Shown: positions 3,859 to 56,707 of the stretch, one piece after another | How positions within the stretch are numbered: the first letter of the stretch is position 1 | How the letters are laid out: each line of letters begins with the position of its first letter | Position numbers and translations under genes: made by a program | From: Anaerolinea sp. | GTDB lineage: Bacteria; Chloroflexota; Dehalococcoidia; Tepidiformales; Tepidiformaceae | Direction of reading: 5' to 3' | Assembly: GCA_013822275.1 (NCBI GenBank) | Contig: PNKC01000004.1 | Coordinates: forward strand, 1 to 64,000 | Length of the DNA stretch: 64,000 nucleotides | The notes under the pieces: model-generated | The model's input: only the letters and a program-made list of their open reading frames with translations | What the model was told of the DNA's origin: nothing | Database searches by the model: none

Positions 3859-5799
3859 ATGCCTCAACTCCCCTGGGACCTCTGGCTCCATCCCGTTGAC
3901 CTGCCGAGCGGGCTGGAGGTTGAGCATGCCTACGACCCGGCCAGCGGCCGCCTCGCAATTACCGTCACGAACCGCTCGGAAGACGCCCTCCAGCCGCGCG
4001 ACATCCGTCTCTGGACCGAACTCGATGTCCCCGCCGCTGATGGCTGGGCGTGGCTACACGGTCGCTACATGCAGATGGACGCCCTCGTCCGCAACTTCGG
4101 CACGCCCGCTGAGGAGGGCTACGATGGCCGCTACGTGAGGGCTACCCAAACTGGCCGCCGCTACGTCAGCCGCGAGGCGGGCACGCTCACGCTAATCGCG
4201 CAGTCCACCCCATCCCTCCTCGCTGGCTGCCTCCGCATGGACCGTTTCTTCTTCGATGTCGAATTCGAACTGAACGAAGACGAGTCCCGCCTCATGGGCT
4301 TCGGCCTGGTCTTCGACCTCGACGGCGTCGAGCTTTCGCCGGGCGAGTCGCTCGAACTGCCGCCCGTACTGCTGCTGGACGGCCACGACGCCCACGCCCT
4401 CATGGAGCGATACGCGGACGAAGTCGCTGCCGAAATGTCGGCCCGCGTCCCGGACCATGTCCCCACCGGCTGGTGCAGTTGGTACTACTTCTACAACCTC
4501 GTGAGCGAGGAAGACATCCTCGCCAACCTCGCTGACATGACCGCCACTGGGCACCCGGCGGAGTACGTCCAGATCGACGACGGCTTCCAGAGCTTCACCG
4601 GCGACTGGCTGATCCCCAACGAGAAGTTCCCTTCAGGGATGGAGTTTCTCGCCGCCAGCATCCGGGAGGCCGGCTACAAGCCCGGGCTCTGGCTCGCGCC
4701 CTTCGTCCTCCACGAGGACTCGGTCGCCCTGAAACAGCACCCGGAGATGGTCCTCAGGACCACAACGGGCGAGACCATCTTCGTCCAGACCTGGTTGGGC
4801 CGCTGCGCCATCCTCGATTGCACACACCCCAGCGCCGAAACCTGGCTCCGCCACACCATCCGCACCGTCGTCCGGGATTGGGGCTACACGTACCTGAAGC
4901 TGGACGCCCTCAGCTACGCCGCCAGCGCCGCCTCCCTCGCAAACTACCACACCGCTGGCACCACGGCACCGATGAACCTCCGCCGCGGCCTCGAAATCAT
5001 CCGCGACGAAGCCGGTGACGAGACCTTCATCCTCGGCTGCACCTGCCACTTCGGCCCGGCCGTCGGACTCGTGGACGCCATGCGAGTCGGCCCGGACGTC
5101 AAAGAAATCTGGGCCGATGGCCCGAATCCCTCCGTGAAACACGCCATGCGCCTCACCCTCCAGCGCAACTGGATGCACATGCGCTGGTGGGCGAACGACC
5201 CGGATTGCCTCATCGTCCGCGAGACAGACACCCAGCTGAGCGAGCCGGAAGTGCGCTTCCTCGCGACCGGCATCGCCCTCAGCGGCGGCATGGTCGTCGC
5301 CAGCGACAACCTCCCGAAGCTCGATGACAGCCGCCGGAACATGGCCCTTGCCCTCTTCCCCCCACCCGGCGTGGCGGCCCGCCCATACGATTCGTCCGAT
5401 GGCCCCGCGCCCTTCGCCTGGCGGGCGGACCTCGGCGGGGGCCGCTTTCTCGTAGGCTTCCTCAACTGGGGCGAGGCGCCGCGCTGGATTGTGTCTGGCG
5501 GGTACCTTCGCCCGGGCGAAGTCGCGTTTGACGTTTGGAACGGCAAGAAGCTGGGCATGGGCGATGTCATGCTTCGTCCTCACGAAGGCCAGATCTGGCA
5601 GGTCGCGAGCCGTGGCCCCACGCCGCGCGTCGTGGGTGATTCGGCCAGCCTGACCTACGCGGGACTGTATCAGCGCCCGGTCAGCGGCCGCATCCAGGTC
5701 CGCAACGATCTTGCTCGCAGCCGGGTCCTGGCGGTCGAGGCGCGCGGCCAGGTCTTCGATGTCGAACTCGCCCCCGGGGAGATGCGCTGGTTCGACTGA
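3859..5799 (+). CDS. Alpha-galactosidase, GH36 / melibiase-like
   Basis: Protein of 646 residues with no signal peptide, so probably cytoplasmic. It would release galactose from alpha-galactosides and feed the galactokinase upstream. A beta-sandwich N-terminal region (about 1-190) precedes the (beta/alpha)8 domain, marked by GWCSWYYFYN near 205, VQIDDGFQ near 235 and GLWLAPF near 275. The nucleophile fits Asp349 in YLKLDAL and the acid/base fits Asp413 in MRVGPDV. A C-terminal beta domain completes the family architecture. It has its own leaderless-type promoter, so it is not strictly in the galK operon. Specificity for raffinose-type sugars or other alpha-galactosides is not determinable. 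Confidence 0.9.
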   Translation: MPQLPWDLWLHPVDLPSGLEVEHAYDPASGRLAITVTNRSEDALQPRDIRLWTELDVPAADGWAWLHGRYMQMDALVRNFGTPAEEGYDGRYVRATQTGRRYVSREAGTLTLIAQSTPSLLAGCLRMDRFFFDVEFELNEDESRLMGFGLVFDLDGVELSPGESLELPPVLLLDGHDAHALMERYADEVAAEMSARVPDHVPTGWCSWYYFYNLVSEEDILANLADMTATGHPAEYVQIDDGFQSFTGDWLIPNEKFPSGMEFLAASIREAGYKPGLWLAPFVLHEDSVALKQHPEMVLRTTTGETIFVQTWLGRCAILDCTHPSAETWLRHTIRTVVRDWGYTYLKLDALSYAASAASLANYHTAGTTAPMNLRRGLEIIRDEAGDETFILGCTCHFGPAVGLVDAMRVGPDVKEIWADGPNPSVKHAMRLTLQRNWMHMRWWANDPDCLIVRETDTQLSEPEVRFLATGIALSGGMVVASDNLPKLDDSRRNMALALFPPPGVAARPYDSSDGPAPFAWRADLGGGRFLVGFLNWGEAPRWIVSGGYLRPGEVAFDVWNGKKLGMGDVMLRPHEGQIWQVASRGPTPRVVGDSASLTYAGLYQRPVSGRIQVRNDLARSRVLAVEARGQVFDVELAPGEMRWFD

Positions 5800-5825
5800 A
5801 TCCTATGTTTGACTGCCGCCGGTGG

Positions 5826-31867: not shown

Positions 31868-32338
31868 GACAGAAGATCCCACTAATCGAGGAACTTCCTA
31901 CGCCGCCGAGGTTAGCTGTCGGGCTACGGCCGGAGAATAGCCGTTCCGCCGTCATCGTGCTTCTTGCCGGGAAGCTGCGACCCTTGCGGACTCGCCCCGA
32001 GTACTGGTTCCCCCGTTCCGCCTGCGCGGACTAGGCGCGCGATTGCTCGCTGGAAGCATCCTTGAGGCAGTGACGGTAAGTGTCAAGCGCTTAAGCAGTT
32101 GATTTGTCGCGGTTTCGGCTGCGAAAAGGCTCCGCCGGGACCTTCGTGGACGCGGCCGCCCCGTCCCGCGGCCCGAATCCCGGGCAGGCGCGGACCGGGA
32201 GCGAGGGGTACTTCTGGTAACCGGAATCCGACATTGATCGTTCGCACAACCAGAACACGGAACCGCGCCCGTTCTCCACCCGCCGGCCGTGCAAGCAGAC
32301 GCTGCACAGGCCCACGCGCGGGTCACGGCCGCTCGAAA
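31868..32338. other. Gene-free 471-bp stretch
   Basis: Between two minus-strand genes. Short open frames are present, but none has family resemblance, a ribosome-binding site or the TAnnnT-N6 start pattern. The only structure noted is a small palindrome, AAGCGCTT near 32087-32094. No tRNA or other RNA gene was recognised. Confidence 0.5.
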
Positions 32339-48000: not shown

Positions 48001-48394
48001 TGGTCTGGTCCGCGTCGCCCTCGGCTCCAGGGCCGTGCGCGAGGCTGTGGCCTCGGGACGCTTCTGGCGCGAGGTGTACGTGGCTGCCGATATCGACGGC
48101 ACCGTCATCGAAGGCTTCATCGACCTGCTCTACGAAACGCCCGAGGGCCTCGTCATCGTGGACTACAAGACCGACTCCGCCAGGGACGCGCAGGAAGTCA
48201 ACGCGGCGATGGAGCGCTACACGTCTCAAGGCGCCGCGTACGCACTTGCCCTCCAGCAGGCCATGCCCGGCCGGAAGGTGGCGAAGTGCGTTTTCGTCTT
48301 CGTCCGCCCGGATATGGAGCCCGCCATAACGGACCTCGCCGCCGCCGTAGCCACGGTGAGGGGTAGCCTCGCTACGGCTGCTGCCGCGCCTTGA
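45086..48394 (+). CDS. addA: AddA-like UvrD-family helicase-nuclease
   Basis: Superfamily 1 helicase of 1102 residues with a C-terminal nuclease. Motifs: Walker A FVEASAGTGKTTAL near the N-terminus, Ia ITFTEAAAAELKDR, II HILIDEFQDTDPIQ, III FVGDPKQSIYRFRRAD, IV LTANFRSR, V MTVHAAKGLEFPIVLLAG, VI YYVAATRARDHL. The nuclease has FIDLLYETPEGLVIVDYKTD. Together with AddB this is a dual-nuclease AddAB enzyme. ATG 45086 is chosen for GGAGA five bases upstream; ATG 45080 is also in frame. Its 3' end overlaps the convergent selenoprotein gene by 23 bases. Confidence 0.9.
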   Translation: MQPTEILADQPARDRIANALDQTLFVEASAGTGKTTALVGRVVNLVLHGVPIRRIAAITFTEAAAAELKDRVRTGLESSLATAAVSSPAAVRCQAALNDLDGAAMQTLHAFAQRILALYPLEAGLPPQLTISDEIRAGIDFNEDWQQFMDHLLRLDNAALARAFTLGLEVRNLRTIALAFGRNLDRLAEARFADEPFQVNREDLLRELAVADEEVVSRGLESAGGPLVTHILSLRPLVEELETAGGDDQFLSPLVGRSVSMRNRSEDNPIWDPVKRQPAVKSRAHAALTAAERERARLIAGARTECLIPVLRQLQQFTLDRARERRMRGTLHYDDLLVLARDLLRTNAAVRAAVAGRFSHILIDEFQDTDPIQVEIAALLAASTDNVAGLDWHQIPVHEGRLFFVGDPKQSIYRFRRADILLYQQAKEHFGGELSLTANFRSRSPILDWVNSIFSRLIGMEAQPGQPAYRPLTGGRQHRESAGQVVHLVGGPLDGNIDQVREVEADHLVSLIQSIRGQWDVDDAAGGTRKAHLNDIAILLPTRATFSAIERALEASNVPFRLESRSLLYRTQEVVDLTNLLAAIDDPTDDVSVVAALRSPAFGCADDELYEYACAGGSWDYTGAVPEVGPGHPVPAALATLRELHGSRWWFTVSEMVERVIRERRLMEIALANRRPRETWQRLRFVQDQARAFEQAGGATLRQFAGWLRTQADEGSRVAESVVPESDDDAVRVMTVHAAKGLEFPIVLLAGLNRDDTDERGIAYWREGSATPEVRVGSLAAGYFQTAGFDDARAGEKLMGELEDYRLYYVAATRARDHLVVSLHHKAGGKSHAAQTYALCQAAGMPLTTVPPVAPASGPPQAGTPPTAAVLEERAAWLTQRDALLRANMRARTLAATVIAHGLELPGTEVVVNDEQVDAEQPWRRGRAGTNLGRAVHAVLQSIDLATGEGLAAAAAAQAVAEGVPGREPEIIGLVRVALGSRAVREAVASGRFWREVYVAADIDGTVIEGFIDLLYETPEGLVIVDYKTDSARDAQEVNAAMERYTSQGAAYALALQQAMPGRKVAKCVFVFVRPDMEPAITDLAAAVATVRGSLATAAAAP

Positions 48395-49223
48395 GCATCC
48401 GTTCGACGATCGGGCTCGGCTTCGGTGGGTGCCAGGTCTTGTACGCCACTTCCAGTGGTACCGGCCATTCGGCGTCTATGTCCAGGCGGTAGCCCGGCTC
48501 CCCGGCTTCCGCCAGCGCCTGGACCGCCCCCCGCGCGACCTTCAGCATCAGGGCGTCGTTGTGGGGCGTCCCGAAACTGTGCCCAAACGGGAACTCGACG
48601 CCGACGATTCGCGACAGGCGGAACTTCTGGGCGAGGTCCGGCACCATCGTGACCGTGACCGTGGGGATTCCGAGGCTTTCAATCACACGTGCCAGCACGG
48701 GCACGTTCCTGCAGCAATCCGGTCAGGCAGGCGCCAGCAGCAGCACGTCTACGGCGCGCTCTTTCAGGCGGGCGGCGAGTTCGGGCCCCTGGACGTTTCG
48801 CCAGTCCTCCAGCCTCCGGTCCTGGTAGCCCATGAACGAGTATGCCTCGTCCGCGAGCCGGCCAATCGCGCCTTCCTTCTCCAGCTGGGTGAAGGCCCGG
48901 AAGGGCAGCACAACGTCGATGTCTTCCAGCAGGCTGGCGTGGCTGATGTGCAGGTGCGAGCAGCCAATCTGCTCCTGCCGGACATCCCGCGGGATGACCC
49001 GGTAGGTCGGATCGCCCCAGGTTGGCTCTTGCCGCTCGCGCTCCTCGTCGAAACCCTCCTGGCTGTCCTTCAGGAACACACCAGCGGACGTCATCAGCGC
49101 GATCGTGCACTGCTGGACCGGTTTGGGCAGGGGCGTCCAGACAGGCGGTTCGTCGATGGCCGGGGTCGATTCGTACATCGTCCGCATGGAACGCGGAAGG
49201 AACTTGTAGCTGTCGATGGGCAT
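48372..49223 (-). CDS. GrdB-like selenoprotein, in-frame TGA decoded as selenocysteine
   Basis: One frame runs from ATG 49223 to 48372 with a single internal TGA at 48725-48723. Reading it as Sec gives 283 residues with Sec167 in LLLAPA-U-PDCC: a U-x-x-C redox motif (Sec167, Cys170). The upstream half contains ALMTSAGVFLKD, GDPTYRVIPRDV, VVLPFRAFTQLEKEGAIGRL and ADEAYSFMGY, shared with glycine/sarcosine/betaine reductase subunit B proteins. The downstream half continues the family (VIESLGIPTVTVTMVPDLAQ, then VEFPFGHSFG). A SECIS hairpin follows the TGA. GAGGAGG lies 6-7 bases before ATG, with TAGAAT further upstream. No grdA, C, D or E nearby; a thiol/selenol reductase role is inferred. Confidence 0.88.
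48687..48706 (-). promoter_or_regulatory. Bacterial SECIS hairpin
   Basis: On the minus strand, ACGTGCC, loop CGTGCT, GGCACGT: a perfect 7-bp stem. The apical loop starts 23 bases after the TGA, within the known bacterial range of about 16-37, and has G as its second base, as SelB-recognised loops do. It lies inside the coding sequence immediately after the U-x-x-C codons. Confidence 0.8.
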
Positions 49224-49245
49224 CGGTCGCCTCCTCTCGGCGATT

Positions 49246-50610
49246 CTACTGCTTTCCGAAGATCACGCCCGGGTTGAGCAGGTTCGCCGGGTCGAGCGCG
49301 GCCTTGATGGCCCGCATCGCCGCGATGTCGCTTTCCGAGCGGGTGAGGTGGAGCCAGCGGGTCTTCGCCACCCCAATGCCGTGCTCCGCGCTGATGCTTC
49401 CGCCAAGCTCCGCAACCAGCCGCAGCACGGCGTCCGTTGCCCTATCGTCGTCCGCCGCCAGGCCAAGCACGTTGACGTGCAGGTTTCCATCCGCGATATG
49501 GCCAAAGAGGATCGGGCGCGCCTCCGGGGCCGCCTTCTTCACGGTCCCACGCACGCAGGCTTCGAATTCCTCGAGCCTTGGCAGTGGCAGCGCCACGTCC
49601 AGCTTGTGCGGCACGCCCTCGGCGTTGATCGACTCCGTATGCCGCTCCCTGTACGCCCAGAGCCGTGCTCGCTGGGATCGCTCCGAGGCGACCGCGCTCG
49701 CCTCGAAACCCCCGGCCGCTTCGAGCGCGCCCACGAGTTCGCCCATCGGGTCATCCCGGGCGGCGCATTCGAACAGCAGGTAGCAGGGCGCCCGGTCTGG
49801 AAAGGGCGCCGGAAGGCCGGTGTGGCGGAGCACCAGGTCGAGACCGTCCGCGAAGAATACCTCGGCCGCCTCCAGCGAAGGCGCGTGCGCACGTACCACG
49901 GACACGACGCCCAGCGCCGCCGCTACGCCGTCGACCGCGAGCAAGGCTGCCGCCCTGCCGGCCAGTTGCGGGATCAGCCGCAGGCGAGCCCGTGTGACTA
50001 TCGCCAGCGTCCCTTCGCTCCCGGCAAGCAGTCCGGGGATGTCGTAGCCCGTGTTGTCCTTCGCGAGGCCCGGCAACCGCCGAATCACGCTGCCGTCCAC
50101 CCGAGCGGCCTCAATTCCGCCGACCTGCGCCCGCATCGGCCCGTAGCGCAACACGCGGATGCCGCCGGCGTTCGTCGCGATCATCCCGCCGATCGTGCAA
50201 CTATCACGCGAGGCCAGGTCCACGCCGAAGTTCCAGCCCGCCGCGCGGATGTGTTCCTGCAGCCGCGCCAGCGTCACGCCCGCGCCGACCGTGACTTCGC
50301 CCGCGACCGCATCCACTTCCCCGAGTGACGAGAGCCGTGAAGAGGAAACCACCACCTCCCCGCCGCGCGGGACGCCGCCGCCAACCAGGCCCGTGTTTCC
50401 GCCCTGCGGCACCACGGGCACGCCCGCCTCGGTGAGGATTCGGAGGGATTCGGCCAGCTCGGCCGTGTCGCCGGGGCGGACCACAAACCGCGCGTCCCCA
50501 GAGTACCGGCGGGTCCAGTCAGTTTCGTAGGACGCCTTCACATCCGCGTCGCGCAGGACGTGCTCAGGCCCAACGACCCCCGCAACTCTGGCTGCCAGGT
50601 GATCCGTCAC
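49246..50610 (-). CDS. FAD-linked oxidase, glycolate oxidase GlcD / D-lactate dehydrogenase type
   Basis: Protein of 454 residues. The FAD-binding PCMH domain has VVPQGGNTGLVGGGVPRGGE (pyrophosphate loop), GVDLASRDSCTIGGMIATNA with GGIRVLRYG, and GLLAGSEGTLAIVT. The C-terminal cap domain has FGHIADGNLHVNVL (conserved catalytic-site His/Asn) and SAEHGIGVAKTRWL. It oxidises a 2-hydroxy acid such as glycolate or D-lactate; the acceptor is unknown. The GTG at 50610 is inferred from the conserved N-terminus. The selenoprotein gene follows on the same strand after 22 bases, so the two may be co-transcribed, though the selenoprotein has its own promoter-like TAGAAT. Confidence 0.88.
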   Translation of the reverse strand: MTDHLAARVAGVVGPEHVLRDADVKASYETDWTRRYSGDARFVVRPGDTAELAESLRILTEAGVPVVPQGGNTGLVGGGVPRGGEVVVSSSRLSSLGEVDAVAGEVTVGAGVTLARLQEHIRAAGWNFGVDLASRDSCTIGGMIATNAGGIRVLRYGPMRAQVGGIEAARVDGSVIRRLPGLAKDNTGYDIPGLLAGSEGTLAIVTRARLRLIPQLAGRAAALLAVDGVAAALGVVSVVRAHAPSLEAAEVFFADGLDLVLRHTGLPAPFPDRAPCYLLFECAARDDPMGELVGALEAAGGFEASAVASERSQRARLWAYRERHTESINAEGVPHKLDVALPLPRLEEFEACVRGTVKKAAPEARPILFGHIADGNLHVNVLGLAADDDRATDAVLRLVAELGGSISAEHGIGVAKTRWLHLTRSESDIAAMRAIKAALDPANLLNPGVIFGKQ

Positions 50611-50663: not shown

Positions 50664-51950
50664 CTACCGCAGCTTCGTTACCGGCCGCAGGAACAGCATC
50701 GCGGCGACGCCGATGACCATCGCAATGATGGCGCTCACTACAACGGTCGTCTGCGGCCCGAAGGCGCTCGCCATGAGGCCGGCCTGGGCGTATCCGACCG
50801 GCGTGGAGGCCGTGAACGCGAGGCTGTACATGCTCATCACCCTGCCCATCATCGCCCGCTCCGTATTCTCCTGGAGCAGCGCCATCGCGAAGTTTATGAA
50901 GATCGCGGGGCCAAGCACGCCTGAAACGAACAGCATGATCATGTTCACCGGCAGGCTGCTGCTCAGCCCGTACAGCATCATGAAGAACCCGCCGAAGAGC
51001 ACCGAGGAACAGAGCAGCAGCCCTCGCCGCCGCAGCCGGATCACCGTCATCAGCATCGATCCGAAGACGATCCCCGCGCCAAAGCAGCCCCAGAGGATGC
51101 CAACGAACTTGTCGCTCTCCTTGAGCACATCCTCCACGAAGATCACGACGGTCACGCTGAAGGGGCCCATCAGGAACACGCCGGGGACGGTCCCCAGCGC
51201 CAATACACCGGTCAACTGTGGTGAGCGGCGGACGTACCGCAGTCCTTCCACCAGGTCCGCGCGGACGTTGCGCCCGGTGGGCACGGGCGCATCGGTCGCG
51301 ATGCGCGAGAAGAGGAAGGCCGCCGCCGCGAGCATCACCACCTCCGCCCCGAAGGCGAACGTCAGCCCCGGGCCATCCGCGAGGAAGCCCCCCAGGGTCG
51401 GGCCCCCGAACTGGAGCGTGGCCATGAACGCCATCGTCCCCAGGATGACGCCGTTTTGGAGCTGCGCCGGCTTCAGGATCTGCGGCATCATGCTGGCGCG
51501 CGCCGGGTTCGTGAACGCCCCCGCCCCACCAACGATCGCCGCGAGGAAGAAGACGGGCCAGATGCAGCCGGCATCCATGCCCGCCAACGCCACGTACGCC
51601 AGCGAGACGGCCGCCGCCACGCTGTAGGTGCGGACAAGAATCCGCCGCCGCTCCACCCGGTCCGCGACCACACCACCGAAGAGCGCCAGCGCCGCGCCCG
51701 GCAGCGTCTGGCAGATGAGCGCCGCCGCGATGGCAATGGGCCGGGCGTCGTCCGGTACCCGGTCGCGGATAAAGAGCGGGACCGTGACTGCCTGGATGCC
51801 CACGCCGGTGCCCGCCACCACGGATGCCGCCCACCAGTTGCGATAGCCTGCAGTGGCGAAGGGATTGCGCGTTTCAATGGTCCCGTCAACGGTCTCGCTG
51901 TGGCTCGGCGCGCCGGTGAGAGGCTCGGCCGGGAGTACCTGTTCTGTCAT
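50664..51950 (-). CDS. MFS transporter (EntS-like MFS_3)
   Basis: Integral membrane protein of 428 residues with about 12 predicted helices and a 30-residue hydrophilic N-terminus. NPFATAGYRNWWAASVVAGT, PGAALALFGGVVADRVERRR (motif A) and NPARASMMPQILKPAQLQNG are characteristic of the EntS/MFS_3 exporter group. Substrate unknown; siderophore or drug efflux is typical of the group. The ATG is fixed by TAGACT six bases upstream. The FAD oxidase follows after 53 bases. Confidence 0.88.
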   Translation of the reverse strand: MTEQVLPAEPLTGAPSHSETVDGTIETRNPFATAGYRNWWAASVVAGTGVGIQAVTVPLFIRDRVPDDARPIAIAAALICQTLPGAALALFGGVVADRVERRRILVRTYSVAAAVSLAYVALAGMDAGCIWPVFFLAAIVGGAGAFTNPARASMMPQILKPAQLQNGVILGTMAFMATLQFGGPTLGGFLADGPGLTFAFGAEVVMLAAAAFLFSRIATDAPVPTGRNVRADLVEGLRYVRRSPQLTGVLALGTVPGVFLMGPFSVTVVIFVEDVLKESDKFVGILWGCFGAGIVFGSMLMTVIRLRRRGLLLCSSVLFGGFFMMLYGLSSSLPVNMIMLFVSGVLGPAIFINFAMALLQENTERAMMGRVMSMYSLAFTASTPVGYAQAGLMASAFGPQTTVVVSAIIAMVIGVAAMLFLRPVTKLR

Positions 51951-56518: not shown

Positions 56519-56540
56519 TCGCGTAACGCTACAGGGTTCC

Positions 56541-56617
56541 GACCGCTTTCCTACGCACGTATAAACGTGGTCAGGTTCAAGGGGTTTACTCTCAGCCCGA
56601 AGGCACCCCCAGCGATC
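56541..56617 (-). ncRNA. TPP riboswitch (THI element)
   Basis: Minus strand order of the conserved pieces: P1 strand GATCGCT (56617-56611), GGGGTGCC, GGCTGAGA, CCCTTGAACCTGA, GCGTAGGAA, and the closing P1 strand AGCGGTC (56547-56541), which pairs with the first over 7 bp with one G-U. These are the pyrimidine- and pyrophosphate-sensor cores of TPP aptamers. It controls thiBPQ. Confidence 0.93.
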
Positions 56618-56707
56618 CCGAACAGCTATTGAATTGTCTCCGCCAACCTACACCCTCATTCCATGCCCGGCAACTACACCGGGTTCCAATGCTCCGCCCT
56701 TTCGCCT

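Follow-up and report, generated by a model that had tools for sequence, protein, structure and literature searches.

A PrdB-type selenoprotein gene in a Dehalococcoidia genome in which no proline- or glycine-reductase partner subunit was found

On the minus strand of a 64,000-nucleotide stretch of DNA from an Anaerolinea sp. (the window, meaning the whole stretch that was analysed), two open stretches in the same frame are separated by a single TGA, which raises the question of whether this codon ends a gene or encodes selenocysteine, and, in the second case, what the product might do. An earlier sequence-only reading had joined the two stretches, strand unstated, into one continuous GrdB-family protein of 283 residues, with the TGA at a redox motif Sec-Pro-Asp-Cys, and had called it a hidden selenoprotein with a bacterial SECIS element. 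Translation of 49223-48372 (-) with TGA read as U indeed gave a single frame of 283 residues, whose sole internal TGA lies at residue 167 in the motif LLLAPA-U-PDCCRN, as that reading had it. The features of the locus are as follows.

48372..49223, minus strand: PrdB-type selenoprotein gene, 283 residues, selenocysteine at residue 167 (translated with TGA as U)
48374-48372, minus strand: TAG stop of the selenoprotein gene, from the sequence
48723..48725, minus strand: in-frame TGA, selenocysteine codon, motif U-P-D-C, with residue 170 as the resolving cysteine
48687..48706, minus strand: apical SECIS hairpin of 7 bp, loop CGUGCU at 48699-48694
49230..49235, minus strand: Shine-Dalgarno sequence AGGAGG, 6 nt 5' of the ATG
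49246..50544, minus strand: GlcD-like FAD-linked oxidase gene, the upstream neighbour (PF02913 and PF01565; start of the gene approximate)
50664..51950, minus strand: MFS transporter gene, further upstream (PF05977/PF07690)

Bacterial SECIS elements are hairpins close 3' of the UGA, about 16-37 nt away, with a G as the first or second base of the loop. The hairpin that had been described 3' of this TGA is present, ACGUGCC-CGUGCU-GGCACGU forming a perfect 7-bp stem and a 6-nt loop, and it satisfies the rule, since the loop begins 23 nt past the TGA and has G as its second base. Taken alone it is unexceptional: the whole-fold z-score is -0.84, and an equally good hairpin occurs at 9 of 262 codon positions of the same gene. 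The case for it comes from a comparison of 33 subfamily members, the window gene and 32 others from Dehalococcoidia and related Chloroflexota with about 45-80% identity, which are kin, so that the counts are not independent events. TGA stands at the selenocysteine codon in 33/33 with no other stop within the frame, and the hairpin is kept in nearly all of them. Among 75 conserved columns, the strongest synonymous constraint fell on V+9, P+8, L+10 and P+1 after the TGA, which are hairpin codons plus the codon adjoining the UGA, and the SECIS codons differed in synonymous constraint from the remaining codons (Mann-Whitney p = 2e-4). The invariable TGA and this constraint show that the hairpin is non-random. 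Its stem also covaries, C-G being replaced by U-A in 4 sequences and U-A by C-G in 6, at several scattered places of the tree where branch support is moderate. Stem cells were paired in 92.6% of cases, a value matched by 1 of 1000 column shuffles, whereas slid stems reached only 14-62%; sliding the stem partners by +2 also produced 13 double changes, yet left just 62% paired.

Homologues with cysteine provide a natural control. Alignment at residue 167 showed either the TGA or, in genome G118 and in nine homologues from other Chloroflexota, Cys; columns 167 and 170 are invariant over 36 proteins when U is counted as C. The ten Cys homologues have no comparable hairpin, with a mean best hairpin of -3.7 kcal/mol against -9.7 for the Sec homologues and -4.9 for background. 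G118 and the window come from one bacterial family, the Cys homologue of G118 is nested within a Sec clade of the tree, and neither SelA nor SelB was found in its genome.

The check for selA, selB, selC and selD that had been proposed succeeded for tRNA-Sec, which has a UCA anticodon, for SelA (522 bits) and for SelD (368 bits, its gene also containing a TGA), all in the window's genome. It did not turn up SelB in the assembly, which is 77% complete, yet SelB scores above cut-off in 17/17 relatives that carry a close homologue; the best SelB match in the genome itself was assigned by eye, from its sequence and neighbour, to the CysN type, with a CysD-type gene next to it. SelD is a selenoprotein in many bacteria, and the SelD here (G000:C8:50943-51878, L011), with an internal TGA in CGG-U-ASK, is probably another. 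Two further PrdB/GrdB-type genes with internal TGA are present in the same genome, one at G000:C10:39929-40591 (L075) with the motif U-P-V-C-H and one at G000:C31:7800-8261 (L121), and with SelD counted the genome likely has at least four selenocysteine genes. Shortly downstream of selA (4365-5822) lies, on the opposite strand, a tyrosine-recombinase-like integrase gene (L107, 6675-7796), possibly part of an integrated element.

Across 294 genomes of the class, 95 have a family member, and among the matches listed that span the site nearly all have one TGA. SelA was found in 83/95 genomes with the family and in 115/199 without it (Fisher p = 1.6e-7, nominal since the genomes are related). The 12 family-bearing genomes without SelA include G118 and several incomplete assemblies. 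In G018, a 95% complete genome, family members with the TGA and a pair of GrdE-type genes are present, and SelA gave no match. Altogether, comparative genomics supports selenocysteine insertion, and we regard decoding of the TGA as selenocysteine as almost certain.

What type of protein is encoded is a separate question. The assignment to the GrdB family holds at the level of the GRDB superfamily, for which PF07355 gave 34.1 bits, passing the Pfam gathering score of 22, but the type is PrdB: the best model was TIGR04483 (135.7 bits, profile positions 14-222/238), although its equivalog cut-off of 300 bits was not reached. GrdB models gave 34-50 bits, the GrdB-type NCBIfam models scoring 41-50 bits and failing their cut-offs of 65-800, and only the second half of GrdB was matched, a full GrdB-type protein having ~430 residues. 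The subfamily forms one clade with support of 100/99. Longer paralogues of roughly 390-490 codons (L087, L088, L089 and L082) carry an extra C-terminal region after the Sec domain. In the AlphaFold model (pLDDT 95, pTM 0.93), Sec167 sits between strand 160-164 and helix 168-183, and the invariant residues are H90, D101, Sec167, Cys170, E182 and R205. The PDB yielded no solved structure for the family: single-sequence and profile searches gave no meaningful match, and Foldseek against the PDB returned nothing at E <= 0.001, its weak matches to a B12-binding domain, a dehydratase and an asparaginase being distrusted.

The absence of partner subunits sets the protein apart. That this is not a classical glycine reductase had been proposed from the window, and it now stands at the level of the genome, as the PF09338 subunit (GrdE type) was not found in the window's own genome (77% complete) and in 22/23 relatives searched, several of them >95% complete, and the pyruvoyl subunit PrdA (TIGR04480) was matched neither in the own genome nor in close relatives. 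Two strong haem-copper oxidase matches were found in the own genome, either of which could be a nitric-oxide reductase; they are consistent with oxygen respiration, arguing against Stickland fermentation. No neighbour is conserved across 23 subfamily loci, nor across 19 paralogue loci, so the neighbourhood gives no clue to the substrate. The glycolate-oxidase-like gene pointed out earlier does adjoin the selenoprotein gene, with a gap of 22 nt, and the two are probably co-transcribed, but it is common to just 3/23 loci, those of the nearest relatives, and therefore tells little about function, leaving the functional link weak. The MFS transporter probably lies outside the selenoprotein's system. 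At its other end, the selenoprotein gene overlaps an AddA-like exonuclease gene of the opposite strand tail-to-tail by 23 bp (48372-48394), the latter terminating at 48394. Elsewhere in the window, a TPP riboswitch at 56531-56620 (-) (66.5 bits) lies upstream of a binding-protein/permease/ATPase transporter set at 56440-52666, probably a thiamine transporter, and a c-di-AMP riboswitch lies at 31889-32047 (-) (64.4 bits).

Among known systems, the 26-kDa Sec subunit PrdB of D-proline reductase is the nearest: its TIGR04483 profile is matched over nearly its full length, the size class is similar and Sec stands in U-x-x-C, but the window protein is under the cut-off, no PrdA was found and its genome has haem-copper oxidases. 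Protein B of the GrdB/GrdF/GrdH kind (PF07355, TIGR01917, TIGR01918) is homologous in its second half, Sec region included, but the window protein is without the first ~200 residues and falls under the NCBIfam cut-offs, and its genome has no GrdE-type subunit. In Synergistota, monofluoroacetate reduction has been proposed as the role of the GrdB-like FarB (PMC10838667), which resembles the window protein as a GrdB-family Sec protein with a proposed non-amino-acid substrate; FarB, however, is encoded in an operon and has FarE as its partner, and the window protein has neither. Environmental surveys contain similar proteins. In the Sargasso Sea data of 2005, PrdB ranked third in abundance among known selenoprotein families, with 42 PrdB-type Sec genes (PMC1088965), and the GOS survey of 2008 counted 235 Sec and 110 Cys genes of this type (PMC2398784). 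Like the window protein, these 'proline reductase PrdB' entries are UxxC Sec proteins, placed under pfam07355 in GOS, with Cys forms known, and the window subfamily is likely among them. Dehalococcoidia possessing glycine reductase have been described (PMC9751293), while a literature search on selenoproteins in SAR202, Dehalococcoidia and Chloroflexota found nothing on the window subfamily.

We favour a full-length PrdB-type selenoprotein that works as a single-subunit reductase with Se-S resolution by Cys170, a reading that, taken as a whole, we hold to be reasonably probable. The hairpin just 3' of the UGA would prompt SelB and Sec-tRNA to read this codon, and the product would be a PrdB-type enzyme acting without PrdA or GrdE. 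PrdB and GrdB use their selenolate as the nucleophile. By analogy, the selenolate of Sec167, at the helix start, may attack an electrophilic small substrate at a polarised C-N, C-X or other bond; Cys170 would resolve the selenium-bound intermediate by forming a Se-S bond, after which a thiol reductant of the cell would restore the enzyme. All steps after Sec insertion are inferred from this analogy. With the pyruvoyl partner missing, the substrate would need no Schiff base, or the chemistry would differ.

The most serious competitor accepts the selenoprotein but makes it a general selenol/thiol:disulfide oxidoreductase or peroxidase instead of a substrate-specific reductase. The U-x-x-C at a helix start would suit such an enzyme, the haem-copper oxidases make oxidative stress plausible, and ocean surveys place PrdB among thiol-dependent redox proteins (PMC1088965). 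However, no thioredoxin-type fold was matched, the PDB offering no match at E <= 0.001, and the invariant residues throughout the protein suggest a dedicated substrate pocket, so we consider this possible but prefer a substrate reductase. Much less can be said for a true PrdB subunit of D-proline reductase, or a protein B of glycine reductase, whose partner was missed, even though PrdB is the best model and the assembly is just 77% complete. The score of less than half the equivalog cut-off, the haem-copper oxidases and the lack of PrdA count against it, and the absence of the partner from near-complete relatives largely refutes it; we think it improbable.

Two further explanations deny that the TGA encodes selenocysteine. 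A real stop, whether in a pseudogene, through an assembly error or between two separate proteins, would agree with the normal use of TGA as a stop in this genome, but the exact same TGA recurs without any other stop in members from independent assemblies, constraint runs on past it, and Cys takes its place in G118, which is without SelA and SelB, and in other Chloroflexota. With the TGA kept in all 33 subfamily members and the frame open beyond, we rejected the pseudogene, and a stop of any kind is very unlikely. Least likely of all is a reassigned code in which TGA stands for Trp or some other amino acid, which the open frame would allow. Near the locus, two transporter genes and the genes of AddA, AddB and RecJ type have TGA as their ordinary stop, excluding a genome-wide code change; moreover, the column holds Cys rather than Trp in homologues, and tRNA-Sec, SelA and SelD are present.

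The kind of gene described here is already known; what is new is the gene itself, the Dehalococcoidia subfamily and the documentation that partners are lacking. A gene caller that treats every TGA as a stop would lose the redox half of the protein. PrdB-type selenoproteins are plentiful in environmental data, where they are labelled proline reductase, and the lack of a proline- or glycine-reductase partner in a genome with haem-copper oxidases indicates that this inherited name is probably wrong for the subfamily. We give about even chances to a broader proposal, in which the subfamily constitutes a Sec-dependent enzyme family of its own that occurs in lineages with haem-copper oxidases and acts as a PrdB-like reductase of one subunit, catalysing an as yet undescribed reaction. 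If so, the subfamily would hitherto have been filed as 'proline reductase' or 'glycine reductase' by sequence similarity alone.
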